Source: Nymphaea colorata
Lineage: Eukaryota; Streptophyta; Magnoliopsida; Nymphaeales; Nymphaeaceae
Reading direction: 5' to 3'
NCBI RefSeq assembly: GCF_008831285.2
Contig: NC_045139.1
Coordinates: 4,438,704-4,502,703, forward strand
Length of the DNA stretch: 64,000 nt
Each line of letters starts with the position of its first letter. Positions within the stretch are counted from its first letter, which is position 1. A program made the translations under genes and the position numbers. The notes beneath the pieces are model-generated. The model saw nothing but the letters and a program-made list of their open reading frames with translations, did not search any database and was not told the DNA's origin. Positions 17,672-63,472 of the stretch are shown piece by piece.

Positions 17672-20600
17672 GCTGGTTATGACTATGATCAGCACCAACA
17701 CAATAAGTATCCCAATCTCCTGGAGGTCTGACTTCCTCCAGTTCTGGTTGTCATTTCTCTATTTTGTCCAAGCTTTAGGCAGTTTTTCTATGCTAGGATC
17801 TTAGGTTCAAAGGGTGTCGAAAGCTGATTTTTTTTTTAAATAAAGGGAGCTTCTAAGGGACTCCTGGCGATTTTGGAAGGCATTGCTGCTCCGACCGTCT
17901 GTATGGTTCATGACTGGCGAACAAGCATGAAGCAATGAAAAGCTATTAAATATTCCATACATTTTCTTTTCATATAGTTTTGCCATGTTATGTAGGAAAA
18001 CAATATGGATGGGACTCCAGTTTTGTTAGTAATATGCGTTGCGTTTGGTTGTTTGATTATTTAATTGACTGCTTTTGGCAGATGGGCTCTAAACGAATTT
18101 ATGTATTAGCGTTAAATTAGCACACACGCTTTCTCTCATACATCTACTTTACAATTGTGGTCTTGAAGGACCTATAGAGAGCTTGTTTGATTGTTGCTAC
18201 ACTGGCGTACTATTGGTGCTGAGACCTGCCCCTTCATGCAGATTTATAAATGCATGATAGTTGTTAATTTGTTTGAGACTTCTCTTGCAAGGACCGGCAC
18301 AAGAAGCTCATATACTTTGTTTTCGAAGGAACGCTTTTTATGTATCTTGTGTTCCAGCTTTCGCCATTGAATGCGTAGAGTAGAACATCCTGTTCCAGAA
18401 CAAGTATGATGTTTCACAGATCAACGACTTCGGAGAGTTCTAGCGCGGCTCTGCTCGGGGGCTTAGAACTTAGATTTTCTTTCTTGACTATCGGAAAGAA
18501 GAGGATCTGCAAATGGGAGAGCTTACCTGTATCTGGCTATTTTAAGAATGGAACTTCAACGATGGATGTCCCCGGCTGGTCTGACAATCTTTCATCATTT
18601 CTGATGAATTGTCTTTTTCTTTTTCTTTGTGTCTTTTGACTGCTTGAGCTTAAAGAGCTCGGGCTTCCGAAGTCGGTCACAATCAGCTAAATGGATCGCA
18701 TTGGGACCGAATAATGGAATGAATCGCATTTGGTAGTTCTATCAAGAGTGTATCGTTGTACGTCAGTTCTGTGGAACACTCTCACAAATATCATTTTATG
18801 GGTTTTAAATGATATGGGTGCAATATGGCAAAGCTGTTTTCTCAAGAAAATCTTGAGGAAAATTAAAAGAAAAAATAATTTTAAAAACAAAGAGAAAAAA
18901 GTGCAGTAGTAAAAAATGGCAATAAAAAACGAAGAAACTATATTTCTTTTTCACGTGTTTAGGAGATCTTTCCGTTTTGAAGTTTTTAAAAAGAGTGTTA
19001 TTTTTGCGGTTTTTTTTTTGTTGGCTTAATTTTTATCTATAAAACGAGTTTCTTTTTTTAAAAAAAAAGAAAAAAAACGTAATCCAATGCCTCAATAGGT
19101 CAATGCAGTTTAGATAGGCTTTTTTTCCAACAAAATGGTAAAAGAAATGTTAAATGTTTGTCAAAAAAATTATCGCAAAACTACGTATTCAAGCTGGTTG
19201 ATGCCGACCAATATGGCGCTACTTGATGTATTATGCATCAAAATATGTCAAAACATCAAATTAGGCTGACCCGTGTTTGTAGCCTGATTTTAAAAGAAAG
19301 CACAAGGCCTGTTTCTGCCTCTTTTATGAGAGGGAAGAAGGACCAATTGGCGTCGGGTAACTGTAGCAATATGACACTACTATGATACGTTAACGTACCA
19401 TAGCATTGGATAGATAACTTTATTTCAAATAGCTTTACATTCAAATATGAAAATACGCTTAGGCAACTGAAATAACCTGTGGGAGATTTATTGTGAATGA
19501 CAGTGCTTCAACATGTCTCATTTGTTTCGTCTTTACCTGTACAAGCCGGGCAAAACTTAATGTTATAATCGAGACATGTACACCCATTAGTCCACATTTT
19601 TTGCAATCTGCATTGATTTGTCGAAATAAATAGTGTCTTAAATTGAATCTTTGTTATTCCATTCCTTCTTAGCATTTTTTTTCCCAAGTGATTGACTCCA
19701 ATATTTCTATTTAGTATTGTTGCCAACACAAATAAAGTGTAGTTTTATTTGGGTGAGTGGAAGGAAACTCCCACCTGATTGAGAGGCCGAAGCTCTCTTT
19801 TTTTTCTTTGCCTTTGGAATCCAAAGCTATCTTGGGACCTCGGTGTTTGTAGTCCAAATAAATAACATCTAAAAAAATAAAAACTGAAAACATACACCAT
19901 TCAACCAACCTGCTGAGAACCATATCTCTTTCAAGAGTCGAATTCTTTGGATGTTCTAATTGAACGATCCTTAGCAGGAAAAAAGAAAGTGCAGGAAAAA
20001 AGAAAGTGTAGCCAATAACATATATTTTAAAATTCAGAGGTCCCACTTGAGATCGACTTTTACCTAATCAAGAGGTCAGAATTGAGATCGAGATAAATCT
20101 CAATTGACTGAAATAAAACCAGGAGCGTAATCGGAAGAGGCCCTAGGCGGGCGTCGTATAACAACACTTTTCCCCGCCTTTTATGTGGCACGGCAGAATT
20201 TTTTGCTGAAAACACGAGACAGAAGAAGATGGTGGAAGATGCTTAAGGGACGACACCCTCAACCATGAACGGCAGGTTACAGATGAGACACACGACCACG
20301 CCCTAAAGGCGTACTCTACCCTCATGTAGCTTTTGGAGCACCCAAGTGGTGGCAGGGCCCCGAAGAGCAGGAAAGCAGGTGCTTTGAGCCTGTTATATGG
20401 AAGAACTTCTCTCATGTTAGCACAACGAAGACCTGTATTTGTGGAGATAACCGACATGACCAAGGGACCGCAAGATGTGAAAGGCATTGGTTGGTCACTG
20501 GAACTAAACTGGAGTTGACATGGGGAAGATTATGCCGCGTGTAAAGTGCTCCAATCTACACGAGTGACCACCTGCGTGTGCACCTTCACCTGATTGCAGG

Positions 20601-21806
20601 AGAACTGTACTTCAACCCCCATTCCCAGGATACCGGCTATTAGCATAATCTGATAGCCGTCAGCTTGACACCAACATGCACATCATAAAGAAAAGCCAGA
20701 AGGGGTTGAATTTAAGAAGTTGAAAGGGGTTCATGGCGCAACATAATCCCGTAAAGTCTATCTAAACCCAGCTTAATGGGTCTGTTTTATGTAAGCAGTT
20801 GAATCCTTCGGGTGACACTGTTTCACAAGCAAACAGTCTGTTGGTGACTAAATGCTGTAGAATAGGGCCCCCACTGCCATACAATACGAAAAAATTTGGC
20901 ATTCAGTGGTTTAGCAGTTTCACTCTAATTCAATACCTCCCAAACATACATTGGTTGCTTTGGCAGTGCTCGATCAAGTTGGACGAACAAGAAAGACAAG
21001 TCGCAGCTCAAATCAAGTGTACAGTCTTACCATTCCCAGTTTCCAGTTCAAGCCGTCCAAGCACTTCGCAAATTATATCAGGCAAGTGTAGATTTACTCA
21101 ATTCAAGATACTTGTGATATATGTAACATCTATGAGGAATATCTGTGGCAGAATGACTAAACTACCTAAACTACTAAAGAACTTCAGAGACAAGACCGAG
21201 AATGTCAGGTAGGTCAAAGCCAAGTGGTAGTGTGTCGTCGATATGCTGAACATTCATTTTTATCTGCAAGGCTCACTATGTGCAAAATTCTACACCAAAG
21301 TGAGTTCCATATTGTTGCCTGATTTCACCTTTTGCTAGAAACCGGTTTAACGGTGTATTGTGGAACTATTAAAACAACAGAAGATGAAAAAAGCGTTGTC
21401 CACTCCTTATGTGACATTGGCATTATAAATAACGTTCATTGCATATTCTAGCTTTTATTTTCAAAAGTATATTAATATCAATACCAGCTCACTACCTATG
21501 AGTATGACACATAACAGAAGCTACTAGCTTTAACTTTAATAACTAAGAGTAAAGGAGGCCACATCTGAAAACCGGTTCCATGGTCATTCATGAAATCCAG
21601 AAAATTATTAGTTTACAAAATTACATCTCTGTATGCATGTCATATACAAATACACTGAACCATAATTCTTATTCTGTAAAGTCATTTTCCAATCCAGGAA
21701 ACCTTATTTCCATAAATGAGCATCACCAAGCAGCTTTCACATTCAAAGAAATGACAAGCATTCTTGCTAGTGTGTCCGTCTATATTCCTGCTAACTCTAA
21801 AACCCC
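17672..21806. other. Intergenic, between aldolase and CCT4
   Basis: This holds the aldolase 3' UTR (roughly to 17960), AT-rich DNA with A/T runs around 18830-19080, and a moderately GC-rich block at about 20100-20620 with no long frame and no motif I recognise. The latter could be an old repeat or an unannotated non-coding transcript. The longest frame near the CCT4 end (20799-21212, 137 codons) shows no protein-like composition. Confidence 0.45.
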
Positions 21807-22166
21807 AAAAATAGTAACATCTGGGTATTGAACAGCAACTTAATGATATAAACAAAACCAAGGAAAGCAAAAATTGTCCTAAAAGCACATCAACCCACAA
21901 CCCTAATCCTTAACCATCCACACAACCACTAGCTACTAAACATGTCTCCATTAGCAATCCAAGTGAAGGTGTTCAAAAGCGTGAGGAAAAATAGTAACAT
22001 CTGGGTATTGAACAGCAACTTAATGATATAAACAAAACCAAGGAAAGCAAAAATTGTCCTAAAAGCACATCAACCCACAACCCTAATCCTTAACCATCCA
22101 CACAACCACTAGCTACTAAACATGTCTCCATTAGCAATCCAAATGAAGGTGTTCAAAAGCGTGAGG
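21807..22166. repeat. 180-bp tandem duplication downstream of CCT4
   Basis: Copy 1 is 21807-21986 and copy 2 is 21987-22166. They are directly adjacent and differ at one base (G at 21963, A at 22143). Neither copy encodes anything recognisable; they lie 400-760 bases beyond the CCT4 stop codon, on its 3' side. Confidence 0.97.
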
Positions 22167-22567
22167 AACTACAGTTTAAGCGACAATTGTGGAATATTAA
22201 TTCTCCAGTCCATAATCATATGAACAGAAATTATGTGTTTGTATACTACCATCAGCAAAGGGACGAAATGTAGTTAGTTGCCGTTCAGAACAAACTCACG
22301 TAGCTAAAATCTCATGCAGAGAAACGAGGCACAGTCAAAGAAAAAACATGTAACCATCAAACAAGCCATCAAATTCAAACATGAAAATTGTTGCATCACA
22401 ATCTTGCAGGAAACGTACTATCTGTAATAGCATAACAAGATACAACTGATCTGTTAAAAACACGCTACAAAAATTATCAGTACCTTGGACCGCCACGCAG
22501 AATAATTAAAAGAAGATCAAGACTTTCTTTCCGAAGTGAAAGGAATCACAACTCTACTAGAATAGCA

Positions 22568-24169
22568 TCACCTGACGGTGATAATGTCATCGATTTTCAA
22601 AATCATCCTAACACACTCGGTGGCAAGAGTAATGGCGCTTGTGCTCACGAGCAATGGCTGAACCACATTCTCCTCAAGAATGTCAGTGATCTGCCCCTTC
22701 CTGACATTGATCCCAGCATTGATCTCACCCTGGGCGTGCCTGTTCCTGAGCTCGGTAACAATGCCAATAGGATTCAGACCTGCATTTTCCGCCAAAGTAT
22801 AAGGAATCACCTCAAGTGCTTCAGCAAATGACCGAACACAGTAGCTCTCCATTCCCTGGAGAACCTTAGCCCAAGCACCCAACTGCCTCGATATCTCAAT
22901 TTCTGGCGCCCCGCCTCCTGCAATCAAGAACCGCTTGTTCACCAGGCATCTGACCACACAGAGTGCATCGTGCAAGCTTCTATCAGCCTCCTCGAGAACC
23001 AACTGGTTAGAGCCCCTCACCAGCACAGAAGAAGTCCTGCCCATGTTCTTGATACCCGTTATCTTCACTACCTTCCCTTCCCCAACGGAAATTTCCTCCA
23101 CCCGTTCGGCGAACCCCAATTTTTCCTCACGGAAATGCTCGATATTGGCAATGGGCAAACAGTTCAGGGTCTTAGTCAGAAACTCGATTTCATCCCTCTC
23201 GACGTCCTTCACAACCAGAATCTTGGCCTTGGCAAGGTAGTGCAGCGAGAGATCGGTGACCGCGTCGCGGAGGATGCTCTTCTGGATCAGCAAGACATTG
23301 CAACCAGTAGCTTTGATCTTTTTAATGATACCTAGAATGTAGTTTCTCTCCTCCTTGAGAATCCTGTCCATTTGAGTATAATCGGAGACGACGATGCTCT
23401 GCTCAATATCAGTTTTCGGTGGTGAAATCTGGAACTGGATAACGGCGATTTTCGCATTCTCCATCCTGGTCGGACCACCAGCGGCATGGCTGGCCTTGTG
23501 ATCAAGGACGAGGCCCCGAATGAGCTCGGTGTCGTCGACGGTTCCCCCGAGCTTCTTGACGATTCGAATGTCGCGGAGATCAACAATGTCGGGCTTTTCG
23601 GGATCGACAACGGACAGGACGCAGTCGACGGCAAGGGGGGCGAGGAGGGCGGAGTACTGACTGACGACCTTGCTGTTGAGGGAGGTGGTTGCCGCCTTAA
23701 TGAGCGACTGTCGTTCGTCAAGGCTAACGGGGTTGGCCATGGAGGAGAGGATCTCAACGGCCTTATCGGCGGCACGGTGGAAGGACTCAGAGACGACGGT
23801 CGGGTGCACGCCACGTTCCAGGAGAGATAGGGCGTGCTTGAGGAGGGATCCAGCAATGACGACCACAGTAGTGGTGCCGTCTCCGGCAGCGGAGTCCTGG
23901 GACCGGGAGAGGTCGACGAGCATCTTGGCGGCGGGCTGGAGGACCTCCATCTTGTTAAGGATGGTGGCACCGTCGTTGGTGATGATCACCTCGCCGGAGG
24001 CGGTGGAGAGCATCTTGTCCATTCCCTTGGGTCCGAGGCTGGTGCGGACGGCGTCAGCCACAGCTCGGGCAGCGATGATGTTCGCGTGTCGCACATCGTC
24101 CTTCCGCTTCGTGTCGAAGTAGCTCTCCGTCGTCTTCTTCGCCGGCGCCGCTGCCGCTATTGCTGCCAT
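22568..24169 (-). CDS. CCT4: T-complex protein 1 subunit delta (CCT4)
   Basis: One uninterrupted frame of 533 aa on the minus strand, full length for a group II chaperonin subunit. ATP-site motifs are in place: GPKGMDKM at about 46-53, NDGATI at 65-70, GDGTTT at 96-101 with the catalytic Asp, and GGGAPEIE in the C-terminal equatorial half. The segments [15 protein letters not shown] and [20 protein letters not shown], and the ending [13 protein letters not shown], assign it to the delta subunit rather than another CCT. It is one of eight subunits of the cytosolic TRiC ring that folds actin, tubulin and other clients using ATP. The intact frame and conserved motifs argue against a processed pseudogene, and I see no poly(A) tract after the stop. 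A telo-box lies about 155 bases upstream. It points away from its downstream tandem duplication and converges with the aldolase gene. Confidence 0.96.
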
Positions 24170-24325
24170 CGCCGTCGCCGCTGCTAGAGTCCCTCCGGTC
24201 GAATCCTATACTGATCCAAGCAATACACGCAAATCTGGGAAGAGGGAAGAAAATCCCAACCCTAACCCCAGAGTTCAACGAAATGGAGTTGCAGAGGGAG
24301 GGAAAGAAGGGAGGTGACCAATCAT

Positions 24326-24333
24326 AAACCCTA
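24326..24333 (-). promoter_or_regulatory. Telo-box-like element upstream of CCT4
   Basis: AAACCCTA lies about 155 bases upstream of the CCT4 start codon, next to a CCAAT-type sequence at about 24318. Telo-boxes are frequent near the start of plant genes for translation and cell growth. Position relative to the transcription start is unknown. Confidence 0.35.
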
Positions 24334-24569
24334 GACAGAGAGTCTCAGTCTCGAACCGTCGTTTCGTTGGAGGTTTGTGTTTGGATCAAATACCCGAACT
24401 CCACAGAACCCGCAAAGCAAACAAAACAAATAACCTAAAAAATATGAGCACTGATGTGCGGAGAAATTGGTAGAAACCAATCGGATAAAAACCGGACCCT
24501 TAATTTGAAATGTAAAATGTTTTTTTTTTTTACAATGTAATCTTCTCGAATCGATAATCTTAAGCATGT

Positions 24570-25660
24570 TAATGCAAGATTATTTATTAGACTTTAGATA
24601 AATAATAAAAAAATAAATGGCCCACATACCATCAATATTTTGTTAATAAAAAAAATTAAATTCTTCTTAAAGACGACTTGAATCAGAGCATGTTTTATAT
24701 CAAGTTCATTTTTATGAATATATTACGATGTTTACATTTTACTTAAAATTATTTTTTTACCAAAAAATTCAAGGGTCTGATGTCTGGTTTCTACCAATTA
24801 TTCCTAATGTGTGTCCAATACAAATTAATTTGATTTTTCTTTAAACTCTGTTACTTTAAAATCCATGATCCAAAGGATAAGTGGGTATTAATCAATACAA
24901 ATAATTAAACAATCATTTTTTTATAAATTTTCAATAATTGTAAATACATGACTACATTTCAATGCAGAGTGTTACAATTTATTTTTCTAAAGATTATTTG
25001 GCAATAGTAACAAAATGTTGCTGTTTGATTTGATGCATCTACCTAAAAAATTATAAAAAGTTTTATGGTACATATTTTAGATTATTTTATGCACTTACCT
25101 TAATTTTTGAGCAAATATGAAACAGTAATATCTTGTTATTATTTTCAAACAACCCTTTAATAACATATCATAACAAATTATTTAACGAACCCTCTTATAA
25201 ATCGTTGATGATTTTCACCAATTTCCAATAATAAGCTAGTACAGTTTGGTTCAAAACTGGCACTATTAGTGACCTAGTGAACAACAATACAATATAGTTA
25301 ATTAGCTCAAATATACATGGTCACTATTGTTTTTCAAAATTTAAATATATGAGCAACCTCAAGCCGTTTTCAATTGTCAAAACTCTCCCTTAGTTCAAAC
25401 CCTACTCATTTGCATCTTTGGCTTTTGCAGGGGTTCATGTTTAGAATTGACTACATGAGATTCTTTGTCTTTCCTGTAATCAGAAATAAAATGAGATTGA
25501 AATGGAAAGATAAAAAATGTGCAACTAATTTGTCTATCAAACACCATCTTTTGGGGATGGAAACATGATCAAGGAGCTCATCACTTGAATTGATTAAACT
25601 CATACTTCTTCGCTTGCCTTAAGCTTGGTCCAACGAGTTGATTAATTGAACATGAGCCAA
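24570..25660. other. Intergenic AT-rich DNA upstream of CCT4
   Basis: Very AT-rich sequence with many short A and T runs. I see no reading frame, RNA gene or complete element. Confidence 0.4.
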
Positions 25661-25674
25661 CTTGCAAGTAAGCA

Positions 25675-25945
25675 TAGGCATCAGGCCGGGCCGGCCCTGC
25701 CAAATAACGAGTTGGGCCTGGGCCGGCCTGACATCTAAACTCGGGCCCAGGTCCGGCCTCATTACATCAAAAAAATATTTTTAATGTAAAATAATATATA
25801 AGAATAATTATTTGTAATAAAATATTATATATATATTAATAAAAATAAATAGAAAACCATTATTGGACCCGATTCGAGCTTATGCCGAACAAGGTCTTGT
25901 TTTTTCAGGTCCAGGCTTGAGTCGAGCTGGGTACTGGGTTTAACT
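25675..25945. repeat. GC-AT-GC block, possible degraded MITE
   Basis: GGCCGGGCCGGCC- and GGGCCTGGGCC-like phrases at 25684-25760 flank an AT-rich core, then GACCCGATTCGAGC- and GGTCCAGGCTTGAGTCGAGC-like phrases follow at 25865-25935. GC-rich edges with an AT-rich middle are common in plant non-autonomous elements. No target-site duplication was found. Confidence 0.3.
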
Positions 25946-25953
25946 TAAACGAT

Positions 25954-25996
25954 ATACCATGCAACACACACTACCATAACTTGTGTTGCATGGTAT
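25954..25996. repeat. 15-bp perfect hairpin
   Basis: Arms ATACCATGCAACACA (25954-25968) and its exact complement (25982-25996) are separated by 13 nt. It lies 32 bases before the large inverted repeat but is not part of it. Confidence 0.9.
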
Positions 25997-26028
25997 GTCC
26001 GTTCAAAGTTTAACTCAATCAGGTCATG

Positions 26029-26532
26029 ACAGAGTTGTTTTTAATGATATTTCCTTTTAACTTGAAACCATATGTAAACTTGGTTGATATTTTTGCTAGC
26101 ATTTTTTGACATGTTTGTTTAATGATAAGAAGATTTCACAAATACAAAACTTAGTTGAAAATATTTTGAGTTTCTTTATTTCTTTTGTTGACTAATGAGT
26201 CTATACAAATTCATATAATTTTAAAAATACATGCAGATGAAACATAAATTTCATAAACGAACGTGTACCTTATGACATATAGGTATCATAAGGTACACGT
26301 TCGTTTATGAAATTTATGTTTCATCTGCATGTATTTTTAAAATTATATGAATTTGTATAGACTCATTAGTCAACAAAAGAAATAAAGAAACTCAAAATAT
26401 TTTCAACTAAGTTTTGTATTTGTGAAATCTTCTTATCATTAAACAAACATGTCAAAAAATGCTAGCAAAAATATCAACCAAGTTTACATATGGTTTCAAG
26501 TTAAAAGGAAATATCATTAAAAACAACTCTGT
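26029..26532. repeat. Perfect 247-bp inverted repeat, 10-nt spacer
   Basis: The arm 26029-26275 is the exact reverse complement of 26286-26532; I compared the arms line by line and found no mismatch or gap. The spacer is 26276-26285. Arms are about 70% AT and encode no recognisable protein; the frame at 26459-26647 merely overlaps the right arm. The arm ends do not resemble transposon termini and I found no target-site duplication. A transcript across the locus would form a near-perfect 500-nt hairpin. It lies 0.7-1.2 kb upstream of the helicase start codon. It is either a very young inverted duplication or a fold-back artefact of sequencing or assembly. Confidence 0.98.
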
Positions 26533-27057
26533 TTGTATAATTAAATCACCATGTACACATCTTTTTTTCAAACGTGTAACCACTTATGCACATTTTTGCT
26601 TAACATCAACTTGGCATCAGTTTGATACGTCTCAACTTACTCTTTAATATGCTTTGGTCCAAGTCTCTCAAGTGCATGCTCCATGCATCCTTCTTGTTAA
26701 TGACTGTTTGATAGATGCGGCATGTCCAAATTTTAATTAGTTTCAACCTTATAAATATGCATCTCTGCATATGAGTTACATAGATGTTAATACAATTATT
26801 TGTCTCTGCATATGAGGTGCATAGATGTTATTAATACAATGCTTGAATTAAAACTTACTTTATACTTTACATTAAATTAGTCTCTGCAAATGTATGAAGG
26901 TGTTGATATCTCGTTTCAAATATTTTTTGTAACAAAAATTTAAGGGATCTTGCTTTTGGAGCACTCAAGATCTCAGTTCAATCGGATCAGTTCGACTATT
27001 TATCAAATCCATTTGGAATGTATGTGTACATGGACCATCTCTGTCTCAGTTGGCGGT

Positions 27058-27078
27058 TGGAGAGAGAGAGAGAGAGAG
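27058..27078. repeat. GA microsatellite in the helicase leader
   Basis: A GAGA run lies in the probable 5' UTR of the helicase gene; GA-rich sequence continues intermittently to about 27185. Similar GA-rich leaders precede the DUF599 and aldolase genes. Confidence 0.85.
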
Positions 27079-27255
27079 CTGAAAAACCCTCACAAGAAAT
27101 ATGGAAGAGAGAGAAAGCGACACAGAGAAGTTCTCACAGGCGACACAGAGCAAGCGAGGGGGAGAGAGAGAGGAAGAGAGAGATTCTCTCTCTGTCCTCT
27201 ATCCCATGACTACTTCCTCTCTTCTCTGGGTTGTACTCAATACATAGATGCGTGT

Positions 27256-30200
27256 ATGCGCTTCCCCTATCAATGCTACCGCCATTACCATTGGTCCAGA
27301 AACCGTTTCTCTCTTGTTGATCTCTTGGTCCACTATCCCCACCATTTCTCTTTCCCGCCGCCCCCGCCGTCGTCCAATATGAGGGACTATCCGCTTCGCC
27401 AGGATGCCCACTCCTCCTATGCCGCGCCCGCCGTCCCTCGTCTTCGTAGCGTCATCACTGCTCCCACCTTCTCCTCGTCGTCGTCCTCTTCCGCCAGCAT
27501 ACCCGCGCGCTCCTGGGATTTCGATTCCAAGGGGAGAGACAGCTATCTCATCCCCTCCAACCCCACTTTTCCTTCGCTGCACCCTAGCTCCAGCTATGGC
27601 CGTCTGGCCTTTGAGGAGGGTTCCGAGGAGGATTCCGACCGCGAGCCGGACTTTAACAAGGTAGGGTTTCTCCAATCGGATTATCATTGGAGTTTTGATC
27701 CTTTAATTCTTCGATCGACAGTTTTTATGGATATTGTGGTTCAATTCACCTGGTGCTTGATCGTTTCTTCTCGACTGCGTATTGTTTGTCGTGCTTGAAG
27801 CCTGAATTCGGGTTGGTGACGACCGGTTATTTGAATTGTATTTCCTTTCACTTGCTTTATTTGTTTTTGGTGGCTGGTTTTGGTGATTTTATTGTTTAGA
27901 TGGACACTGTCACACTGGTTGCTTAACTTGAAGGAATGATGCTATTATGATGTTTAAGGATGTGGAAAAATTAGGTTCCATGTTTGATTTCCTACTTCTC
28001 AAGAAACAAATGTACCTATATAATCAGGTCATTTTTGCTTGTGACAATATAGCAGTTTCTGCTTTTGCAATATTTGCTGGTTTGTACTAGGCCAATGTTG
28101 CTCAGAAACTTGGCTTGTTGGATTTTCTTGCTTTTGATGAAAGGTCCATCTTTTAAGGCATTCATTTATTTATTCTCAAATAATGTTTTTTTTTTTACTG
28201 TAAGTTCTTTATTTTTCCCGAAATTGTGACTAATTTACACCTCAGTTTTTGTTTGCACGGGTAAAATTGATCTTCACCATCTTATGCTCAAATCACTCGA
28301 CCAGTGCATTTAATGCCAGATGCTGTTTTGAGGCTTTGAGCTAAGCGGAGCATATTAACTTGTTTTTAATAGTGAAAAAGCACAGAGGGTGTATGCGGAT
28401 GTGGGTCATAACTTATCACGACATAATGTGTGCCACATAGGATCTGCGAGATTGCACCAAACAAATTACCCAAAGAATGTGTGCCACATATGATATGTAA
28501 GATTGCACTAAGGAAATTGAAACAGAAAACCTTGTCCATGTAGAGTTAACCTTTTTACAATGGTAAAACATTCTGGACTGAATGTGTCTTGAAGTCTAGA
28601 CAAGGATTTTGGTTGTTAAACTTGACTGAATATGCAGGGTATTTGTCTAATGGTACATGGTAAGTGTATTTGCAACTGCCCACTTGCTGGCAGCTGAGGA
28701 AGAAAGATTTGCTGAGATTTCATTCAATACTGGTTTGACTCATCTCCTACTCAGGGGCGGAGCCAAGGTGGGGGGGGGGGGGGGGGGGGGTGCCCAGCAG
28801 GGCCTGGCCCCCCTCAAAAAAAAAAAAACATATCAATTCTAAAAAATTTTATGTATCCTAATACAAAAATTTTGCAAATTGATACTTCAGCCTCCGTCAA
28901 AATTTTGAAACTATAAATTTGCTCGCCCTCATGAAAAATTCCTTGCTTTGCCCCTGCTCGTAGTAGGTGCAGCTGCAACCATATGGCAACCATAGCACAA
29001 AAAAGGTGTTTTTCCCAAAAAATGCGAAAAAAACGTGATAAATAATTAGCCATTTAAAACTAAAAAATGCTGCTTTTTTAAACATTAAAATGAAAAATAA
29101 ACGAAAAAACACGTTTTTTTCCTCTTTCTTTCATTTTTTTCATTTTTTATTGTCAAACTGTTTTTTCTCATTTTCTGTCTTTTATTTGTTGCAAATATAC
29201 TTATTTTTGGATGTTTGTGTTATTAATTTCTCACTTATTTTATTTTTTCCTCATTTTTTTTAATTTTTAAAAATTTACTGTGTTTTTCCCGTGTTTTTCA
29301 AGTTTGCCATATTATACCTGAGAGAAACATTGCTGTTTAAAATGCAGAAGTTTTTTGTGACTATGACGGCAACTATAAAAGAAGCCTTTGGCTGTTATTT
29401 CATCTGCTAATAGCATTTCTGGTGGAATAGGAAGGAAGCTAATATACTCTTACTATGTTCATGGTGTTCATGCTGAATTTCACTTTTATCGGATTTAGAT
29501 AGGTCACGAGAAGATAGTTTTCACTGTCTGTTCCACATTAGACTGCATAAGCTGTGCACATCTATCTAACTCATAATAGGAGCTTGTCCAATCGAGGTAT
29601 TTAAACTATTTCATGTTCCCCTTACATCAGTTTTGCATTAGTTTGGATTGCTACACTACATTCATCTATCTATAGGTTCTTAAATAATTTTATATGTATT
29701 TAAAGAATATGTCTAATGTTACAAAATCCTTCTGTTTGTTCAAGTGCATTTGTACTGACCTTCTGGTTGTTTTAATGCATTATGGTTTACAAGATCCAAT
29801 TAGCCAAGAAGAACTTGCTACTTTTTGGCTTTCTACATATGTGATGTGGACTCTTACTGCAAGTACTTTTCTTACTTGTTTCTGCTTGTTGCAAAATTGA
29901 AGCAGGATTCATCATCGACTCTTGAGAACATTGATGACTGGAAGTGGAAACTGAATATGCTTATCCGCAACCATGATGAGCAAGAAGTAGTGTCCAGAGA
30001 TAGAAAAGATAGGCGAGACTATGACCAGATAGCAGCCTTGGCTAACAGAATGGGTTTACACAGGTGTCTTTTGCTTTAGTTCATTTGATAATTCATATAT
30101 GAGAGAAGTTGAATGGTGTTCTCCTTTTTTTGGTGTGCCTTGTGTGTTTCAAGGTAAACAACATTTATTTCACTAAATCTGATGGCATAAACAGATTCAG

Positions 30201-33200
30201 GGCGTTTTGATTTTTTTTTTTTGGGGAATAAAAATAATTCATTTTAATTGAACAGTTTTTGGTGCACTGTGAGCTTTGATTTTTTGTGCCCATGATCTGC
30301 CTCCTTGCATGTTTAAATGATGTCATTCAAATATTTTTGTTTGTTAAATAAACTATGTTTAATTGGGTGGTTTTGAGGTGGCAGATACAGGCATAGTGGC
30401 ATACATAAAATTGGGGGCACACCATTCAATCACTCCATATATGAGTATATCTGTTTGTATTTGTTCTCTTTCTTTCCTGTCTGTACAATTCGGACTCGTG
30501 ATTATGAGATAATGGGAAAATGGCAGCCGGCAGTATTCAAGGATTGTGGTTGTCAGTAAATTTCCATTACCAAATTACAGGCCTGATCTCGATGATAAAC
30601 GACCACAACGAGAGGTAAAACTCTTTGTTGGTGATGGAAATTGACTTGCTTGCTTGACATGAAAGAAGAATTACTTTTGTGGTGGCTGATCAAAGTCAGT
30701 TTGATTTAGCAGGTTATAATTCCTACCATTTTGCAAAGGAAGGTGGACAATCTACTGGATAATTTTTTTGCTCAAAAGCCTAGAAGTCTTTTGGGTTTGC
30801 CTGATGCTGCAGTTCCAAATTCGAATGGCCATATTAGCCCAGATGGAAGTGATGATGGTCTTTTTGATGAAAGTGAATCTCAGATGCCCACTAGTGCAAT
30901 CTTGGAAAAAATTCTGAGGAGGAGGAGTCTTCAACTTCATGAACAACAACAAGCTTGGCAGGTACATCCTAGGGCTTTTGATTTGGTATTTTTGCCAAGA
31001 ACATTTGTTGGCATGACTAAAAACGGCTCTGACAAATGCATTTCTCATACATATATTTGTGTTTTGAAAGAGAACTCTCAGGTTTTTTAGTTCCTAGACA
31101 GATCCAGACACCTTAGGTAAAAAATAAATTTTTTTAAATTTTATTTGACTGCTTAGATGCTTTCATATTGTGTATTTGTTAGGAATCCCGAATTCCTCAT
31201 GTGGTTCAAATAGATTTTAAAGGAAAACTTGATTCTTGACCATCAAAGCTTTTTTGCATGTGGGATGCATGTGTGTGTGCGCACCCATATTCCTTTCAGC
31301 TCTATCAGAAAGTATTGTCATCATTGTTTTATGTTTCTGCTGCTTGCAAATTGGTAGTTGCATTTGACATGGTCTACCTATAGATATTCTAAGTCACACA
31401 TGTATTGTTTACTGCTTGTTCTTTCTTCTTGAGGATGCATGTGTTCATAGATGTTTCCTAATCTTTGAGAACCATCATGTTCTAAGAAGTATTTTCTGTC
31501 CCTGCTTCGGGATGCATATCCATGTGGCATTGCCTTCTGAGAACTTGTAGGTTGCGAATGCAATGTCTTTTTCAAACATGACATTGTTCTCCATGAATTA
31601 TATTAAGGTATAGGAAAATATAAAAGTAACATTTCTTGTTTATATTAAATGAATTGCCGCTGATTGTTGCTAGGCAAGACACTTATTTGTGCCTTTCACC
31701 ATTACGATGAAGGATCCGTCTTTTTATTCCTTGTTCCATGCTGTGGACATTATCTTTAAAGTTATGTTTTCTTTTTGTGCACATAGTTAATGAAAAATAT
31801 GTTTGTTGTTTTCTTATGTCACTGATTGTACATGCCTTACCTGTATTCCTAGTCTGCCATTTAGCTTGTCAAGCCTCTTTGCTGACTTGCTGTTTGGTGC
31901 ATTTATTCATAGTTTTGAAGCATTTGTAATTTTAAAGTTTTAAACATGTGGGTAGAAATAGGCCTTGCAACACCTTGCAGATAGCACATCATAACATGAC
32001 TTGCTTTTTTTGTCTTATATGTACATATAGTGGTTATTTTTGAGTCTGACTCAAATTTTCAGGCACACAGTAGATGGTATTTGGTTCTGCTGAGATTGTC
32101 TTCATGTACATAACAGTGGTCTTCTGTTCGACAGGAATCTCCTGAGGGCCAGAAGATGCTTCAGTTTAGAAGAAGTCTTCCTGCATACAAGGAAAGAGAT
32201 ACTTTATTAAAAGCTATTATGCAGAATCAGGTTTGAGTTTTGTCAACTAGGTGCTTTTTCCACTTAAAAGGAGGCTTTTCTTTAACTAACAAGCAGAATT
32301 TAATAAAATGAAGTATATGCTCTTCTACAATATGTATGTGCTGTTTGTGAAGCTTTATCATTTCGTTTACCTTTATTTTCACTGAAAAAATGCTTATGAT
32401 CCTTATTTACGAGCATGTGAAACCACATCTACCAATTATCGGGTCTGGGGTCTTATCGTTTAACTTTTATTTCCATGTCTTATTTTAGAAAGTTGTATGC
32501 TCAGATACAACCTTTGCAGTAGAATGACTGGTTAAGCATGATTCATTCATACTCCCCTGTTTTATACACCTTTTTTCGTGATATGTTTTTAGTTTCCTCT
32601 GGCTTGTTTTATATTTTATTTCTATTTTTTCATTGGCAGATTTCATGAGCATTTGGAGATTTATGAGTGTTTTTTCCTTTGCTTTTCCTTCGGGGAAATT
32701 GGAATCCTTTGCAAGTTTTACTTTGTTAATTTTTGAAGCGAGTCCACCCATGGCCATTAGTGTTAGTGTACCAGTGTCTGGGTAAATTCTCTGCTTTTTA
32801 CGTGTATGTAGATGCATCTTTCTCTTTTCTCTTGTTCTTTTACTGGTTTTACTGGTCCCGTGAGTTATCCTAGGTCTCTCCAGTTTGTGAGATTTTTCTA
32901 CTTTTATGTTAGTCTTCTGCAAATCGCGGCTTAGGAGGACATGCTAACTTGAGTCGATGCTTGCTATTTTCACAGGTTATCATTGTTTCTGGTGAAACTG
33001 GTTGTGGTAAGACTACACAACTTCCACAATACATTTTAGAGTCTGAGATAGATGCTGGCCGTGGAGCAACATGCAGCATTGTTTGTACCCAGCCGAGACG
33101 TATTTCTGCTATGGCTGTTTCTGAAAGGGTTGCTGCTGAGAGAGGCGAGAAGTTGGGTGAATCTGTGAGTTCTTCATTCGTAAATATGTAATTTTACGCC

Positions 33201-36200
33201 TCAAATTCTTAGTTTAGTGATTCAAAGGTTTATGATATCTCCAAAAATATTTTTGTTCCTTCCACAGGTTGGTTATAAGGTTCGTTTGGAGGGTGTCAAA
33301 GGGCGGGATACTCGTTTACTTTTCTGCACTACTGGTGTACTTTTAAGGAGATTACTTATTGACCCAAAACTCAAAGGTGTAACTTACGTTATTGTTGATG
33401 AAATCCATGAACGTGGGATGAACGAAGGTAGCTACTAGTCTTTTAATATTTGGTTGAATTTGGGTTAGTAACAAATACATTACCTAATAGTGATTCAAAC
33501 TGGTGTCAGATTTTCTGCTTATTGTCTTGAAAGAATTACTGCCCCGCAGACCTGAACTGCGGTTGATTTTGATGAGTGCAACTATCAATGCCGAACTTTT
33601 CTTGTCCTACTTTGGCAAGCCTCCACTGTTACATATCCCTGTAAGTTCACAACAGAAAACATCTATTTTTTTTTTGGGAGCTGCAACCATTGTTTTGCTG
33701 TATAACCTTGTTGATTCCAAGTGCCAAAAGAATTTTTGCTTGTGCCAATTTACAGCTAAAACCAAAAGCATGTTAAATTAAATTGTTGCTCTATATCTAT
33801 GTCACATAGGTACGGGTCCAGACCATTTTTAAAAAACTTGGGTGAGGAGGTACGGCCGTACACTCACATGCACATATACATATATATGTCAAAAAATTTC
33901 AAACAGAATAACATATTCACACATGTAGATATATATCAAAAAATTACAAACAAAATAACATATTCAAAAATTACAACAAGACTGATTGATTCTCATTCTC
34001 CTCAGTCGCATAATTAACATACAAAATACATCAGTTTTCTTGATTCTCATTCTCCTCAGTCGCATCATCAAGATTAGAAGGAACAACAGGTTCTGTAAGG
34101 TCCATATTAAGAGCATGCAAATCATGTTCTCCTTCAAGTTCCATGTCAATGTCATTTGGATTAACATCCCAATACTTGGATGATCATGAACTGCAAGTTG
34201 CAACAAAATCAAAATATGATTTAAGTTAATATTAACTTTAAACAACCAACATAATATGCATATGTGTACATATCAAAGATACAAAAAGAAAGAAATACAT
34301 GTAATCATCTGAAGTACTTGAAAGTAAGCGTAGGTTGGAGTGGACATAAACTAAAATCTTCTGCTTGCTTACTAGTTAGCTTATTTCTCTTGATGTTGTG
34401 AATTTGAGAATAAGTGTTCTAATTTCTTTCACAACTTGAAGAGGTTGCAGGTTGAGATAATAACTTCAACACAAGTTGTTGGAGATTTGGTGTCGATGCT
34501 CCAAAACATAACCACCAACTAACAGAATTTTCTTCATCTCTTGCCATTGCAGCTTGTACTGAATCATTTCTTCCACCAGAGAAGCTCGCAAACTCATTAT
34601 TTGTTATCTTCAACCGATGAGAATTAGAATATAGTCTTCCCAAACATATCTCCCTATTTTTTGATTTTTTTGGATCTCGATTAGGAGGAACATGACCAGT
34701 GCCTCCTACCAACTATGTTTGTCCATAATATTTGGGATTTAAGGAGTGTGCCATACAATGCAAAAGGTTATTGCTTCTGTTCCATCTTCTTACTAAAATT
34801 TTATGCACATGATCGAAAAACTCAGAATCATCAAGTGCAACATTCCTCTTCTCATGTCTAAATATGATGTTTTGAATTTTTTCAATCATGTTATCCCACA
34901 TATCATAAACTCTATGAAGCATGGGCACTTCTTTATCAACTTCTCTCAGCATATGCCAAATAGGCTCTGTAAGCTGCAGAAAATATGTAACTTTATGCCA
35001 CCATTCATCATCTAAAATACATTTTTTAATTTCTTGAGCCTGCACAATGTCATCACTCCGATAAAACTCCCAATCATTGTTAGTCACCATAAGTGTTAAT
35101 GCATGTTTCACCTGCTTTATTCTTTTTATCATTACAATAATGGATGCAAAACGAGTCTCTGCTACCTTCAATAATTTCAAATCAGAATGCCTATTAAATA
35201 TAGCAAGAGCATTATTGTGGTTTACAACAAAATTTCCGATGTTTCTGACATCATGCTCAAGCTCCTTAATCCATGAACACAACAAACCGGCATTTGGATC
35301 ATCTTTTGATGGGTTGCAAATACTTTTAAGTGCTAGATTTATACTTTGTGCTACACAAGGAGTCCAGAATATTTGACTATACTTGGGATCACTTGCCAAA
35401 TTTATCCCTGCTCATTGGCAAACTGGAGCATTATCAGTAATAATTTGCACAACATTCTCCTCACCCACTTCTTTGATGACTTAATAAATAGTCCTTTTAA
35501 ATACTCAGCATCTTTATACTTCCCAGATGCATCAACACATTTCAAGAAGATTGGTCTATCAAGTGAATAAACAATAAAATTTATCAGGGGCCGCCTTTCT
35601 ATATCAGTCCACCCGTCAGAAACAATGGATATTCCATATTGTATCCATAAAAATTTCTTCTTTTTTAATAATTTTTCAATGTTTGCCTTCTCTTTTGCAA
35701 GAATTACTGTTCTCAACTTTTCTGAACTCGGGGGTACATGGCCACTCAAACTGCAATTAGCCAAACCTGGAACAACATCTTTCCAATAAGGACTTTTGGC
35801 TACATTAAAAGGAAGTGAACTTGCAAAAAGGAACCTTCCAATCCTTCTATCCATCTCTGCCCTTCCCATATTATTGAATGTTTGTGCTAATGTTTTTCTT
35901 TTCTTTGAACCATCTTTACCTTGTTCAATAGCATAAATAGGAACAGATACACTTGACTTGGCTGAAGATTTCTTTGTCTCAGCTGCATCCTGCTCTTTTT
36001 TGAATATCTTAATCTCCTCTTTGGTAACTTTCGGGCATGGTCTAATTCCAACGCCTGAGATATGCAAGAAATGTGCTTTGCAACGTGTATAAGAGCCAGT
36101 GAACATCATATTACATAATTTGCAAGAAAAAATTACATTCCCACCACCACCTGGTCCTTTTCCTAGTTTTTTCACATAGCACCAAAGAGACTGAGATGGA

Positions 36201-39200
36201 TTATCCTTCTCTACTGCAGCGGTATTAACACTACTACTGCTGCTTGCTACAATTCCACTTCCACTTATAGGCATAGTTTCTTTTCCCTTATCAGCCCTTA
36301 CAACTTATATGAAAAACACCTAGCAAGAGCTGCAAAGACATACACAAAAACAAAAATCGTAGACCATTAGTCACTAAACTTCTCCAAACAGTCATGATTT
36401 TTACAGAAGATCAGTCACTAAACTTCCCCAGACAGTCACGATTTTCTTCGCAAACAAACGCATCCCATATGCTAAATAATTGTAGCAGCTGAGCATAATA
36501 TTGGGATAAAAAGAAGATATGCACAAAACCAATATAGAAAGAGAAAAGATAGAGAACGCAAGACAGAAAAAAAAAGGGAACATCGCCGATCGTGAACCAA
36601 AGAACCGGTCGCTGTTCGCAGCTTGCCCTCGCCGATCGTCGCCGGTCGCTGGCCGTCGCCGATCGTGAACCAAAAAAGGGAACAACGCATTGACAGAAAA
36701 TAGAAAAAATCATGAAAACAGAAGCAAATACCGTCACTGTTCGCCGCTTGTCGTCGTCGGTCATTGTCTGCCGTCGCTGGTCACCGTCTGCCGTCGCCGC
36801 CGTTCGTCCACCCAAGTCGCCAGTCGCCCCAGATGCCGTTCGTCCACCCAAGAGTGAAATGCGTCGAAGGAAGTCGTCACAGGGGTTTAGGGTTTTCGAG
36901 CATTTTAACGTTAGATGATGTTTAAAACGTTAAAAACTTAAAATCGTTAAAATAAAAGAACTGGACGACTTTGGACTCGATCAAAGTTTACCGAGTCAGA
37001 AAATGGACAAAATTGATCCCGGGTATGTTGACCGTACCCGGTGCTGCATTGACCGCACCACTGCCATACGCAGCCTCGTACCCGTACCAGTACAGGTGTC
37101 GTGGCGGTACCGTGCGGGTACTCCTCCTTAACAGGAGTACTCGTGTGACAGAGCTCTATATTATCAACTTATATATTTTTCATGTAATTGTCCTCTGTTC
37201 TTGGGTTTCTAAGCGGAAGGGAGGATGGGGATGTAACTCTAGAAGAACACAAAATAAGTAACAGAACATAGATTTGGTTGTTGGCATCGATTGATGCAGT
37301 ATAGGAGGATTATCCATATTAGAGAGAAGCAAGGAATCTCAAAACCCCCTCAATATGCGGGAGAATGATTGCTTGCAGCTTTCTAAACACCTGGAATTTG
37401 CTCAATCGGCTGGCTCACTAAAAACGTTCTCAATGTTATAAGAACAGTTGCAGACATTTTTGATAATTTGGAAACATGTTAAATTATTGCCATTTTGAAA
37501 TTAGCCAATGATATTAGCAAAATATCAAGATATTCTGAAACTACTGTTAAAAATGTAAAATGTGACAATATTATTCTGAAATATACACAATATTTTGCAT
37601 GGACATCTTGCAGATTTTAAATGTTGTTAAGTCATGGACACCGACATGAGCGTCGTGTCGTGAGAAGGATTAAAAGGTGGGATTTCAATGTAGTGTACTA
37701 TCGAATTAAAAAAAGAGAGGGTAGGGGTACCACCTTCTTTCGCTCCTCTTTGGTTAGACAATAAATTCGAGTACACCACTCCCTTTGTTCTACTCCTTTT
37801 ATGTGTGTATAGGTGTATTCTTCCTTCTTTCATTTATTGTCTAACCAAAAGGAGCGCAGGAGGGTAGCACCTCAACCCTTACCTTATCCTTTTGCTTAAT
37901 TTGATGGAAAATTCAAAGCCTTATCTTCTTTTGAATGACGAAAGAAGGCATAGCCATACTAAGGAGTATTGATGTCTGGACATCCTTGGCATAGACATGA
38001 TTTATGCTTATAAGAATATCTGTGTAACATAGTCAGAAAACCTAGTATACAATAAAATTTCTCCATTTTTTCTGTGAACTTTTCACGTTTAACTGTTTAA
38101 GTCCTCTTAAGATCTTCCTAAGAGAAAACTTATGCTGAAAATGCCCTGGAGAAAAGCCTGCCAAGAAATATATTGGTCGACTATGGTTTCAAGTTATCTC
38201 GAATAAATAAAATTAGTAATGTTTGGTGAGCTGTTGGTTGTTCAAGTCCTTATAATAACAAAGGAATGGTCTCTTACTGAGTAGAGCATGCATGAGAAGG
38301 TGCTGGTACGACTTAAACATTTGACCTTTCTTTCCGACTTAAACATTTGACCTTTCTTTCCCTCCCTTACTGATTCCTAAATTAAGACCATGATACAGGA
38401 CCTACCTTTACTAGGGCCTTTTTAGCTACACTGGTCATGTTAATTAAAGCATTCTTTTATGTTAATCCTCCTTTTGGAAATATTGAATAAGTTGCAGGTT
38501 TCTTGACAGAATTGATAATTTTTTGGGATTGAATTGGAGGCCTTCAAAGAAGAGAGATGGGGTACTAGTTGTCCTGGATCCACAGACTGTGCTTATGATC
38601 TTGCTGACCTTCCTTTTACTACCGTTTCCACTATTCTTGAGCTGCATTCTATTTTGAACTTGGAAACCGATTTAATGTGGAAGATAGAGAAGGGGACTCA
38701 AGTGCAGGGATTTGGTAGCTTATGGGCATAAATATGCTAGCCAGTTGGAATTTTTAGTTATAGAAAAAAATCGTTAACTTGTCTTGGACTCCCTAAGCAA
38801 CTCCTTTTGGAGGACATAGACCTGACCTTTAGTCAGATATGTGGTTCCTTCCCTGCTGTGAGTTCCTAATCGAATCCTTAGGACCTTAACATTAATGAGA
38901 AGTTTTTATTTGATCTTTATCTTTTTCGATCATGAGGAATCTTCCGAGTGCCCATTCCAAGTGCTGTAGTTCTTTGTGTGTCCATTAAGTTCATGGAGGA
39001 AAACCTGCTGTGACTCACTTTTTTTTTTTTTCTATATTATCCTTAGATGTTTATGGTTCACATGATATGTTTTGGTTCAGTATTTAAGGCTTTTTGGAGG
39101 CTTAGAGTACTTGGAACCTTATTTCAGGGATTCACTCATCCAGTTCGCACCCATTTTTTGGAGAACATTCTTGAAGTTACTGGGTACCGTTTGACCCCAT

Positions 39201-42200: not shown

Positions 42201-45200
42201 ACTGCTCTCGGTACGTGGTGTTTTCTTTGAATTAATCAGTGTTATGGTTTCTTATCATGAGTATCTAAAGTTTTGGCGCATCACTTCTCCTCTGCAAACC
42301 ATGTACTCTAACATGGTTTTGTTTTTTGTTTTTTTTTTTTGTTTTTCACTTTGAACTTCCTGATAATTGATCTGTGTTAGGATTCACATTGTGCCTGTCT
42401 TAGATTCGGTGCATTTTTTCCTACTTTATTTTAACTTTTCTTCTCCAAATCATATATTCAAACATGGTTTTCACTTTAAATTTCATGACTGACTTGTTTT
42501 TCCAAATTAACCCTTCATTTCTAGGTTCAAAATGCTATCGAGTACTTGAAAATCATTGGAGCTTTGGATGAGAAGGAAAATTTGACCATGCTTGGTATGC
42601 CAGTGGATTCATTTGTCTATTAATTTTTCAAGCACCTCTTGCATTTGGACATTTCTTTGATCTAAAGAATTTCATTCTTAAAGTCTGCCTCTGGTGATGT
42701 GAAAATGAACAGGACGCCACTTATCAATGCTTCCAGTTGAACCTAAACTCGGGAAGATGCTCATTTTAGGGGCAATGTTCAACTGCTTAGATCCTATTTT
42801 GACTGTTGTAGCAGGCTTAAGTGTTCGAGATCCTTTTCTAACACCTTTTGATAAGAAGGAGGTTAGTAAATGCTTCCAATTTCCATCACGTACATATGCA
42901 GTTAAACAGTTTTTTAGTAGGCTATGCATGCATTTATGACTTATCTGTATTCATATATTGCATAAGCTTTAACCTTTTCAACTTAATGCTGGGTTTTTCA
43001 CATGCTTCGAGCAATCAAGAAGGAAATCTCTTTTGCTACATGCCGTTTCTTGTTATGGACACTTAGATGATGGGTAGGGGTTCACTGGGATATGATAATA
43101 TAAGCTTTGTTCTTTTTATTTTTTCAAATTGTACGAGATCCTCGTAGATTGTGCAAGAAATACACCCTGGTGTCAAACTCTGGAGCCTCTCTCTCTTTCT
43201 TCATTCACACACACACAGACACACACATATAATTTCTGGATTTCTCCATCCAGGTTTGGATGGAGAAATCCTCCAGCCTCTGGAGATCCAGATGGCTGAA
43301 GGTCTTTCGCTTTCACCTTTTTCAGATTAAGTCATGGATACAAATATTGCCAACATTTTGAAGGTATCATGATAGTACTGCTATTTTTGAGCCAGCTGAT
43401 AATGTTCTCAAAGTAGCCAGAAACAAAACATTGTATGAAGGTCCTGTTATGTATCCATTGCTTCTTGAGTTATTCATGACATGTTCCTGAGAACTTCAAA
43501 AAGAGACCTTTTTATATTTTTAGGTACATGTTGCTCTTTTGGTCTCTTTAATGTTTTATCAAGCCCTCTATTTGTTTCTTAACTTTTATATTTTCCCAAG
43601 AAAAATGCTAGAAACCGTAGCGTTTGTTGCTATTCTCATCTTTCAACTACGGAGATATTATATATACATTTGCCATCAACTTTTTTTTGTTTTTTTAAAA
43701 CACTGGTTTATCACTGTGACTTGTTTTTATTGCTATTTTTGTTGTTGCACTTGCTGTTGCTGCTGCTTCTGTGGACTGTTAATATATTATTAAAATTCAT
43801 GTTTAACATTGGTTTTTTCATGTTAAGTTTTTTGATTCCTTGTATTTATTTCTATGGAACTCTTTGTTGCTTTTTATAATTTCCAGCTTGCAGAGTCTGC
43901 AAAATTACAGTTTTCTGCGAAGGATTACAGTGATCATCTTGCACTTATCCGAGCATATGCTGGTTGGAAAAAAGCTGATGCAGAAGGTACTGGTTATGAT
44001 TACTGCTGGAAGAACTTTCTTTCTGCCCAAACAATGAGAGCCATGGATTCTCTTCGGAAGCAATTCCTCTCTCTCCTCAAGGATGCAGGTCTTGTTGGTG
44101 ATGGTGCTGATTTCTGCAATATGTGGAGTTGTGATGAATATCTCATTCGCTCCGTCATATGTGCTGGGCTATATCCTGGAGTTTGTTCTGCTGTGGTAAG
44201 GTTGCTCTCATATATGATCATTAAATTTTGGTTTTTTTTTTCTGTTCTTCTAATAAGGAACACATTGGCATTAAATTTTGAAGTCCTACAACTGAAATTT
44301 GTCCTTGAATTAGGCCTTATGATTGAACTATTATATTGATTAGCAGTTTCTCTCTGAAGGACTAAAATGGGTACATATGGAAATCTAGGTGCCGATTTTG
44401 ACATAGTTATGGGTGTGGAGAGAGGTTTCCAAGATGCTGTGGTGGTCTAGGATTCTGGTGCTTCATGTCGTACTTGTAGTGCAGTGCATTATGTAGTAAA
44501 AAATGCTAGCCCTCTCCGTGAGATAATGGTAAGCACATATCGACACACAACTCTAAAACTGTATGTAGCAAGATGAAGGATAGCTAAAACACTATGCACG
44601 ATGAAAAAGAAGAAAGGAGGGAAAAAAGATCTGAAACAAGAAGGAAGCTAAGGGAGAGAAACAGAAAATAAACTGAGGAAAAAATATCAAAAAGGAGAGG
44701 AGGAGGAACAAGAAGCCTAAACTCTTACCATGGGACAGCAGGAGCACCAGTGGCCACAGCGGCTGCAGTTGACAGCAATGAGAGAGAGAGAGAGAGAGAG
44801 AGAGAGTTATTGTGCATTTCTGGCCTAAGTTGTCAACATTAGAAATCGGACACATGTTGTTAAGACCCTAAAAAGGAGTAGTGAAGACTACTGATTTGGT
44901 CCAAGTCAATTAACTATAAATAAATATATACATATATTCATATGAAAATAAACACAAAAGCATATATACCTACATAAATATTGCACATCTATTATTATAG
45001 ATTAGCAGTTAGTCTGCGACTCTGCTGATCAAGTGACTAATCTGATCAATTAGTTGATGGTCTAGAAGACATGTCAATTGATAACTGACTCGACTGACTA
45101 AGTTGGAATTTGCAACTAAAATTCTGGCTGAAACTCATGCACCATTTGTTGTCTTTTGGTGAAATTGACCACATGAGTGAAGTCTTTTTGCCCAAAATCT

Positions 45201-57189: not shown

Positions 57190-57918
57190 ATAACCTTGAT
57201 ATGAAAGAAGCTGATTTTGGGTGAGCGGGAGGCTATCTCACTGCTCAAATGAGAGCCAATTTTCTCTCTTCTCCTTGCTGGCAGTTTTAGAATTACATTG
57301 GTACGAGGTGGTGAGATAGCCATATCCTTCAACTTGCATGTACAACTCACCCCATTTTTGGTATAAGAGCACAGCTCCATAAAGGTTTTACTGGGAACGT
57401 GCAATTGCCACATGGTGACTGGTGAGTTGCTCACATCAGTCTCTTAAAAGTTCTTTATTTTTAAATGAGAATCTTAAATATTTTTCTTTATATATATATA
57501 TATATGAGTGCCCCACCAGATTTGAGTATTTTTAAACAAGTACCCCTCTAACCAATTTTTCTGGCTCTACTATTGAGAAAGTGTGACGTAACACATCGAG
57601 TCTGCCCCTTTCAGCGAAATAATTCAAAAAGGTTTGAGGAGTTGGGGTTTCTAACCAGGGTTTATTCCAATGCCCCCAAAAATCAAGGCATCTTGAACTT
57701 CTAAAATTCATGCCAGTACTCTATGTGTGCGCGCTTGCATGTCATTTTATTAATAAACCTTGAATTGAAGAAGTAATGTTCTTAAACATGCTAAATGTGT
57801 TGGTAATAGTTAAAAAAACACCTATTTTTTTTGTATCATCAACAAGAAAACACGTTGTTGTCGGTCTGACATGGACCCTTACTATTTATGGGAGTTGATG
57901 AGTTAAAATTTCTGCCTT
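52539..57918. other. Intergenic, no supported gene
   Basis: Mostly AT-rich sequence. The longest frames (53225-53677, 150 codons; 53667-53849) are hydrophobic or unstructured translations with no recognisable domain. A stretch at about 54980-55260 is dense in GATCCAAATCC-type words seen also at 6240-6450. Microsatellites occur at 55608-55639 and 57114-57187. Confidence 0.4.
57114..57187. repeat. Compound (TG)n(AG)n microsatellite
   Basis: A TG/GT run of about 44 bases with a few substitutions passes directly into an AG run of about 28 bases. Confidence 0.95.
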
Positions 57919-57919
57919 T

Positions 57920-58830: not shown

Positions 58831-59389
58831 TTTTTTCTTTTTTTTTTGATAAAACCATAACAAGTTAGGATTAATTTGAAGGATGCAACTAGAAGCGCAT
58901 TTGGACCACATTTCCATTAGTAAATCTAACTTGCATCTGGTGCATTCACCAAGAAAGATCTACTCTTCATTTATGTGGAAAAGGGTGCAAGAGATAAAAT
59001 AAAAATTCCTCCAACTAGGCAGACAGCGCACCAATGCAAAGGCGATTCATTTCCCAATATTCATCTTCCCAAGAAGGGCCCCTCAATAAACTATATCATT
59101 AGACATAGTGCAGGTGCCAGTACCAGCATCCATAAAGTATGTCACAATGATGTCTGCTCCCTTGGAACCAATAACTTCCTCATTAAATGCCTTAGGTAAT
59201 GCCCTCATTTAATGCATTCACTAACTTTAGATCTTGAACTGCCCACTAAGAATATGTTCCTAAAATGGGCATTCCTTATACAGTGGCATTAGAGAGAGGT
59301 AAAATTTGGGCTGCCATGATATCAATCTATACATATTTCCTTGATACATATTCCCTTGAGTTAAGATGAGTTTATCTATTTTATAAGGC
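58831..59389. other. Intergenic, nothing recognised
   Basis: AT-rich sequence between the tandem duplication and the short repeat-containing frame. I see no supported feature. Confidence 0.4.
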
Positions 59390-63265: not shown

Positions 63266-63472
63266 GATGCTTCGAATATCTATCAGAATCAAACTGACGA
63301 CCGAGCTCTCGCTGTATGCCAGCTCAAAGAGCGCGGATGCTTCGAATATCTATCAGAATCAAACTGACGACCGAGCTCTCGTGTATGCCAGCTCAAAGAG
63401 CGCGGATGCTTCGAATATCTATCAGAATCAAATTGACGACCGAGCTCTCGCTGTATGCCAGCTCAAAGAGCG
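63266..63472. repeat. 70-bp tandem repeat (minisatellite), three copies
   Basis: Units start GATGCTTCGAATATC at 63266, 63336 and 63405 (lengths 70, 69 and about 68). The middle unit lacks one base and unit 3 has one internal substitution (AAATTGACG for AAACTGACG). The one-base gap changes the frame between copies, so it is not a coding repeat. Confidence 0.95.

Follow-up and report, generated by a model that had tools for sequence, protein, structure and literature searches.

How does a plant genome come to carry, between two divergent genes, an inverted repeat whose arms agree at every one of 247 positions, and is such a repeat real, recent and functional? The locus lies in the window, by which we mean the whole 64,000-base stretch of DNA that was analysed (C2:4438704-4502703 of a 407.8-Mb plant assembly in 783 contigs). 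We hold, with somewhat better than even confidence, that the repeat is a real, recent and local inverted duplication of single-copy intergenic DNA, and that it arose in a single step, through either fold-back synthesis or template switching during replication.

Structure and setting of the repeat

The initial annotation had described a perfect and ungapped 247-bp inverted repeat with a 10-nt spacer in AT-rich DNA, and this description proved to be exact. All 247 bases of one arm pair with the 247 bases of the other in the window sequence (Table 1), and the arm has a G+C content of 24%, which is below that of the 500 bases on either side (39% and 32%). Translation of the arm gave stops in all six frames. 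Among the matches listed, no other short-spacer palindrome of the window comes near the repeat in strength. When the window was scanned for perfect arms separated by 3-30 bases and containing six or more different dinucleotides, the runner-up among the matches listed had arms of 15 bp (43238-43271), and a chance origin of the 247-bp arms is therefore excluded.

The base rate of such structures was determined in 254,000 bases of the same genome, consisting of the window and 19 sampled 10-kb pieces that were picked by round coordinates from C1 to C9. Twenty pieces had been fetched, and one of them (L007) was left out because it overlaps the window. The scan was ungapped, restricted to short spacers and entropy-filtered, with low-complexity arms removed before listing, and gapped hairpins escape it, for example the older hairpin in Table 1 and the one at 37718-37879 in the window. 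Among the matches listed above the cut-off, the sole other palindrome was located in one sampled piece (L011:5212-5317), with arms of 53 bp, 48 of the 53 positions paired and zero spacer; it is possibly an older example of the same kind. The gapped inverted repeat at 37718-37879 has 49 aligned bases (84%) around a spacer of 65 bases, and two segments far apart in the window (36904-37160 and 46283-46511) form an inverted pair with about 258 aligned bases (69%).

The left neighbour of the repeat is a gene for a TCP-1 family chaperonin on the minus strand (Pfam E 2.2e-163); the start codon of this gene (24169) and the repeat are 1860 bases apart. On the other side, a likely start codon on the plus strand (27379) is found 847 bases past the end of the repeat. 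Further downstream on the same strand, the piece at 32913-33191 had its best phmmer match among solved structures with DHX36-type helicases (E 4.1e-23), and when this piece and its four plus-strand neighbours were scanned against Pfam, none of the five could be assigned to a family at E 0.001. Presumably the five pieces form one helicase gene. The position that had been given earlier, just upstream of a helicase gene, is thus correct as a position relative to the putative helicase gene.

Close to the helicase-like pieces (32913-33781), two adjoining open frames on the minus strand (34713-36304) have DUF659 matches, that of the piece at 34713-35411 being below the gathering score, and we think it likely that these frames are what is left of a hAT-type transposase. 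Downstream of the chaperonin gene, past its 3' end, a segment is duplicated in tandem (21807-22168; period 180 bases, 99.5% identity over 182). A tandem pair of about 480 bases (78%) was seen at 57917-58833, and a tandem array of about 70 bases (97% identity) at 63266-63476.

The older, imperfect hairpin next to the left arm has an inner 15-bp stem, ATACCATGCAACACA, and the search of the assembly with the left flank found no second copy of this hairpin. Lying beside the young repeat, it may mark a local hotspot of hairpin formation. At 25680-25960, adjoining the older hairpin, GC-rich GGCCGGGCC-type repeats surround an AT-rich core, an arrangement that resembles a non-autonomous hAT element.

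Table 1. Coordinates of the repeat and of the features around it, as positions in the window
Feature	Position	Strand	Remarks
Older imperfect hairpin	25935-26017		75% identity to its own reverse complement; ends 11 bases before the left arm; perhaps unrelated
ATGACA, first copy	26026-26031	+	Across the left outer junction
Left arm	26029-26275	+	100% complementary to 26286-26532, with ATGACA on both sides; probably the inserted reverse-complement copy
ATGACA, second copy	26272-26277	+	Across the junction of left arm and spacer
Spacer, CATATAGGTA	26276-26285		10 bases; loop of the hairpin; window sequence
Right arm	26286-26532	+	Perfect complementarity, 1-base direct match at its ends; probably the original sequence, running on into the putative helicase upstream region
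Downstream open frame	27379-27798	+	From the likely start codon; putative helicase

Copies, junctions, age and the artefact question

A search of the genome for a single-copy source of the arm had been proposed in the initial annotation. Run on the 407.8-Mb assembly, it returned the two arms only: the left arm with the spacer gave no match outside its own locus, and the right arm, searched with an E limit of 10, gave none outside the two arms. As the arm matches only at its two copies, neither a repeat family nor a founder gene is visible. The right flank (468 bases) gave three matches elsewhere, of 46-89 bases and 73-87% identity and all within flank positions 310-425. The recovery of such pieces shows that the search method sees diverged repeats, although it skips very common words and its copy counts are lower bounds. 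For the left flank (149 bases) the matches in the assembly were itself and a reversed match to its own hairpin. Neither a second haplotype nor a duplication of the whole locus was found in the assembly with the arm, the right flank or the left flank as query.

These searches bear on whether the repeat is a MITE or a fold-back element with very long terminal repeats. Its hairpin shape and its proximity to a gene are typical of MITEs (PMC12595863), with which, as they are described there, it also shares a size of about 500 bp. According to the same source, MITE insertions yield duplications of 2-9 bp, whereas no exact direct repeat flanks the whole repeat studied here. With the ends shifted by up to 8 bases there was no flanking repeat of at least 4 exact bases either, as was also the case in 144 of 500 random placements. 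Based on the lack of further copies of the arm in the assembly and of a target duplication round the whole repeat, we rejected a MITE or other transposon as the explanation, and consider such an origin very unlikely. No transposon family is visible in the assembly, and the earlier statement that no target duplication flanks the repeat holds for the repeat as a whole, but the left arm alone is flanked by the 6-bp direct repeat ATGACA.

The ATGACA pair round the left arm is a new observation here and would be expected if the left arm had been copied from the right arm. In a zero-offset boundary test the direct match was 0 bases at the left arm and 1 base at the right arm, and the 6-base ATGACA needs a one-base offset because the middle A serves both junctions. 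When boundaries were placed at random 20,000 times in this region, chance alone gave one or other of the two arms a match of at least 6 bases in 2.3% of the trials with an offset of up to 1 and in 5.2% with an offset of up to 10, figures to be read knowing that ATGACA was spotted by eye before testing at a single locus and that five boundary pairs were examined, of which the null covers two. Since chance gives a match of this size in about 2-5%, we regard the pair as a hint only. The reverse direction, with the right arm as the insert, gave a 1-base match only. Deletion of 246 bases (26026-26271) leaves a plausible empty site. ATGA at 26272-26275 pairs with TCAT at 26286-26289, and we infer that this pairing was the fold-back seed; the microhomology at the two putative junctions would amount to 3-4 bases (ATGA/TCAT; ACA).

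With 0 differences at 247 sites, the 95% upper bound on the age is 0.87 million years at a rate of 7e-9 per site per year and 6.1 million years at 1e-9, and this bound assumes no homogenisation of the arms. The repeat had previously been called very young. What the identity of the arms indicates is that they are recent or homogenised, and the bound allows hundreds of thousands of years or more. The arms of an older inverted repeat could have been brought to identity through template switching or gene conversion between them, and the identity would then give no date. Homogenisation of the arms of inverted repeats via template switching is described in PMC8604942, and the older, decayed hairpin only 11 bases away also counts in favour of this reading. 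However, the identity covers all 247 positions to the outer ends and stops abruptly there, whereas repeated conversion would more often be expected to leave partly diverged margins, and we find homogenisation of an old repeat quite improbable.

The second arm could also be false, supplied by a fold-back molecule in the library or by a mis-joined contig. Missed adapters would be conceivable if the assembly was made from PacBio RSII reads with Canu, which is a guess on our part. The fold-back artefact, raised as an alternative in the initial annotation, fits the perfect identity and the tight spacer, and PMC12870357 documents that long-read data do contain fold-back reads, yet its case is weaker than proposed. 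A simple fold-back read retraces its own flank and its symmetry should continue, whereas in the assembled sequence the symmetry stops at 247 bases. The outer flanks differ, the 149 bases on the left matching their own hairpin only and the 468 bases on the right having diverged copies only at positions 310-425, and because of these two different flanks an artefact would probably need two false joins. Moreover, the window has zero Ns, and the 19 sampled pieces held just one other palindrome among the matches listed, a decayed one. In the three PacBio samples described in PMC12870357 fold-backs were few or absent, although these came from newer machines. We consider an artefact less likely than a real event and rather unlikely overall.

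Hairpin RNA and small-RNA readings

Folded as RNA, the 561 bases around the repeat have a predicted energy of -386.5 kcal/mol compared to a mean of -92.2 for shuffled sequences (z -54), in agreement with the earlier claim that a transcript would form a long perfect hairpin; the predicted one is a near-perfect hairpin of 247 bp. In this model a hairpin transcript, from either side, would be a fit substrate for Dicer-like enzymes and would yield mainly siRNAs; 247 perfect pairs are expected to give siRNAs and not one miRNA. Such siRNAs could act back on the repeat and silence it, and they might also bring methylation to the putative helicase upstream region. For Arabidopsis, a review (PMC12595863) counts 885 inverted repeats, of which 634 are situated no more than 3 kb from a gene; about 486 of the 634 yield 24-nt siRNAs. 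A likely origin from transposable elements is given there for about 68%. By analogy with these siRNA-yielding repeats, an siRNA output would be a fair expectation for the present locus, if it is real and transcribed.

The earlier suggestion of a new MIRNA locus, by contrast, found no support. The inverted-duplication model expects the arms to be copied from a later target gene, and as the arm has no other match in the assembly no founder gene is visible for this role; the arm also has stops in all six frames. This is where the locus differs from plant MIRNA loci formed by inverted duplication as described in PMC3237417, with which it has in common the potential for a long perfect hairpin. A search of Rfam over 20000-34000 at E up to 1 gave 12 matches, none of them at the gathering score (best 48.4 bits vs 100). 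Eight of these sub-threshold matches fall on the tip of the present hairpin and one on the older hairpin, and matches of this kind can arise from any stem-loop.

A functional young MIRNA or siRNA locus maintained by selection would agree with the strongly negative predicted fold and with the siRNA output of about 486 of the 634 gene-proximal Arabidopsis repeats. Production of siRNAs alone, however, would not demonstrate selection, and with no founder gene found in this genome and 0 of the 12 Rfam matches reaching the gathering score we consider a selected locus highly improbable. A newborn siRNA locus is a speculative reading that we likewise hold to be improbable, if less extremely so. Here a single event of break repair or fork switching would have reverse-copied 246 bases, and the resulting hairpin would be transcribed, diced, and mark or silence the helicase upstream region. 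If this were true, long silencing hairpins could come from non-genic, non-transposon DNA in one step.

A probable one-step inverted duplication and its known counterparts

We infer the direction of copying, the mechanism and the age of the favoured inverted duplication, which could have proceeded as follows. The ancestral site would have consisted of ATGA, then the 10 bases CATATAGGTA, then TCAT. A 3' end of the bottom strand terminating in TCAT would have folded back onto ATGA of the same strand, and from this primer about 240 bases of the present right arm would have been copied. The new strand may then have rejoined the left flank via a 3-base match (ACA/TGT). The outcome would be a 246-base insertion, the left arm, between the two copies of ATGACA, with the right arm as the template.

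Two known routes, fold-back priming at a break and template switching during replication, fit this scheme. As template-switch and fold-back events would require, one arm is the reverse complement of unique sequence right beside it, across a short spacer, and the repeat is probably an ordinary kind of mutation that is unusually long and clean. It speaks against this origin that a long perfect palindrome should be unstable when its spacer is short, and the insertions made by polymerase theta are usually much shorter than 246 bases.

If the repeat is confirmed, it would be a perfect long hairpin made from unique plant DNA in one step and with no transposon, for which the junction bases can be named, and it would help to keep apart two ideas that are often linked, namely that inverted duplication is a mutation and that it gives rise to a small-RNA gene. 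Should reads refute the repeat, the locus would be a warning on palindromes in long-read assemblies.

Among known systems, the fold-back inverted duplications that follow a double-strand break in human DNA have in common with the present repeat a single-copy spacer and, on the proposed reading, a short inverted microhomology at the loop; in the cases reported in PMC3907307, 2-8 bases of inverted microhomology were present at 13 of 21 sequenced junctions. Those cases are large chromosomal events with spacers of 766-70,466 bp, whereas the event proposed here would be a local one, interstitial and rejoined, and its spacer measures 10 bases. According to PMC11292364, polymerase theta can begin stem-loop synthesis with no more than two base pairs at the terminus, and its snap-back templated insertions resemble the proposed event in the priming on a few bases, the rejoining through microhomology and the inverted repeats in the insertions. 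Short-range template-switch mutations (PMC8794818, PMC7954356) resemble the proposed event in being one-step reverse-complement copies of neighbouring unique DNA with a perfect stem. According to PMC8794818, such perfect stems are possible in a single event, and some human microRNA loci have an origin that agrees with this mechanism. The set described in PMC7954356 differs in that it comes from great apes, with a median event of 12 and a longest of 128, compared to about 246 bases that would have been copied here, in a plant. The present repeat, if made by a template switch, would therefore be a long example of its kind.
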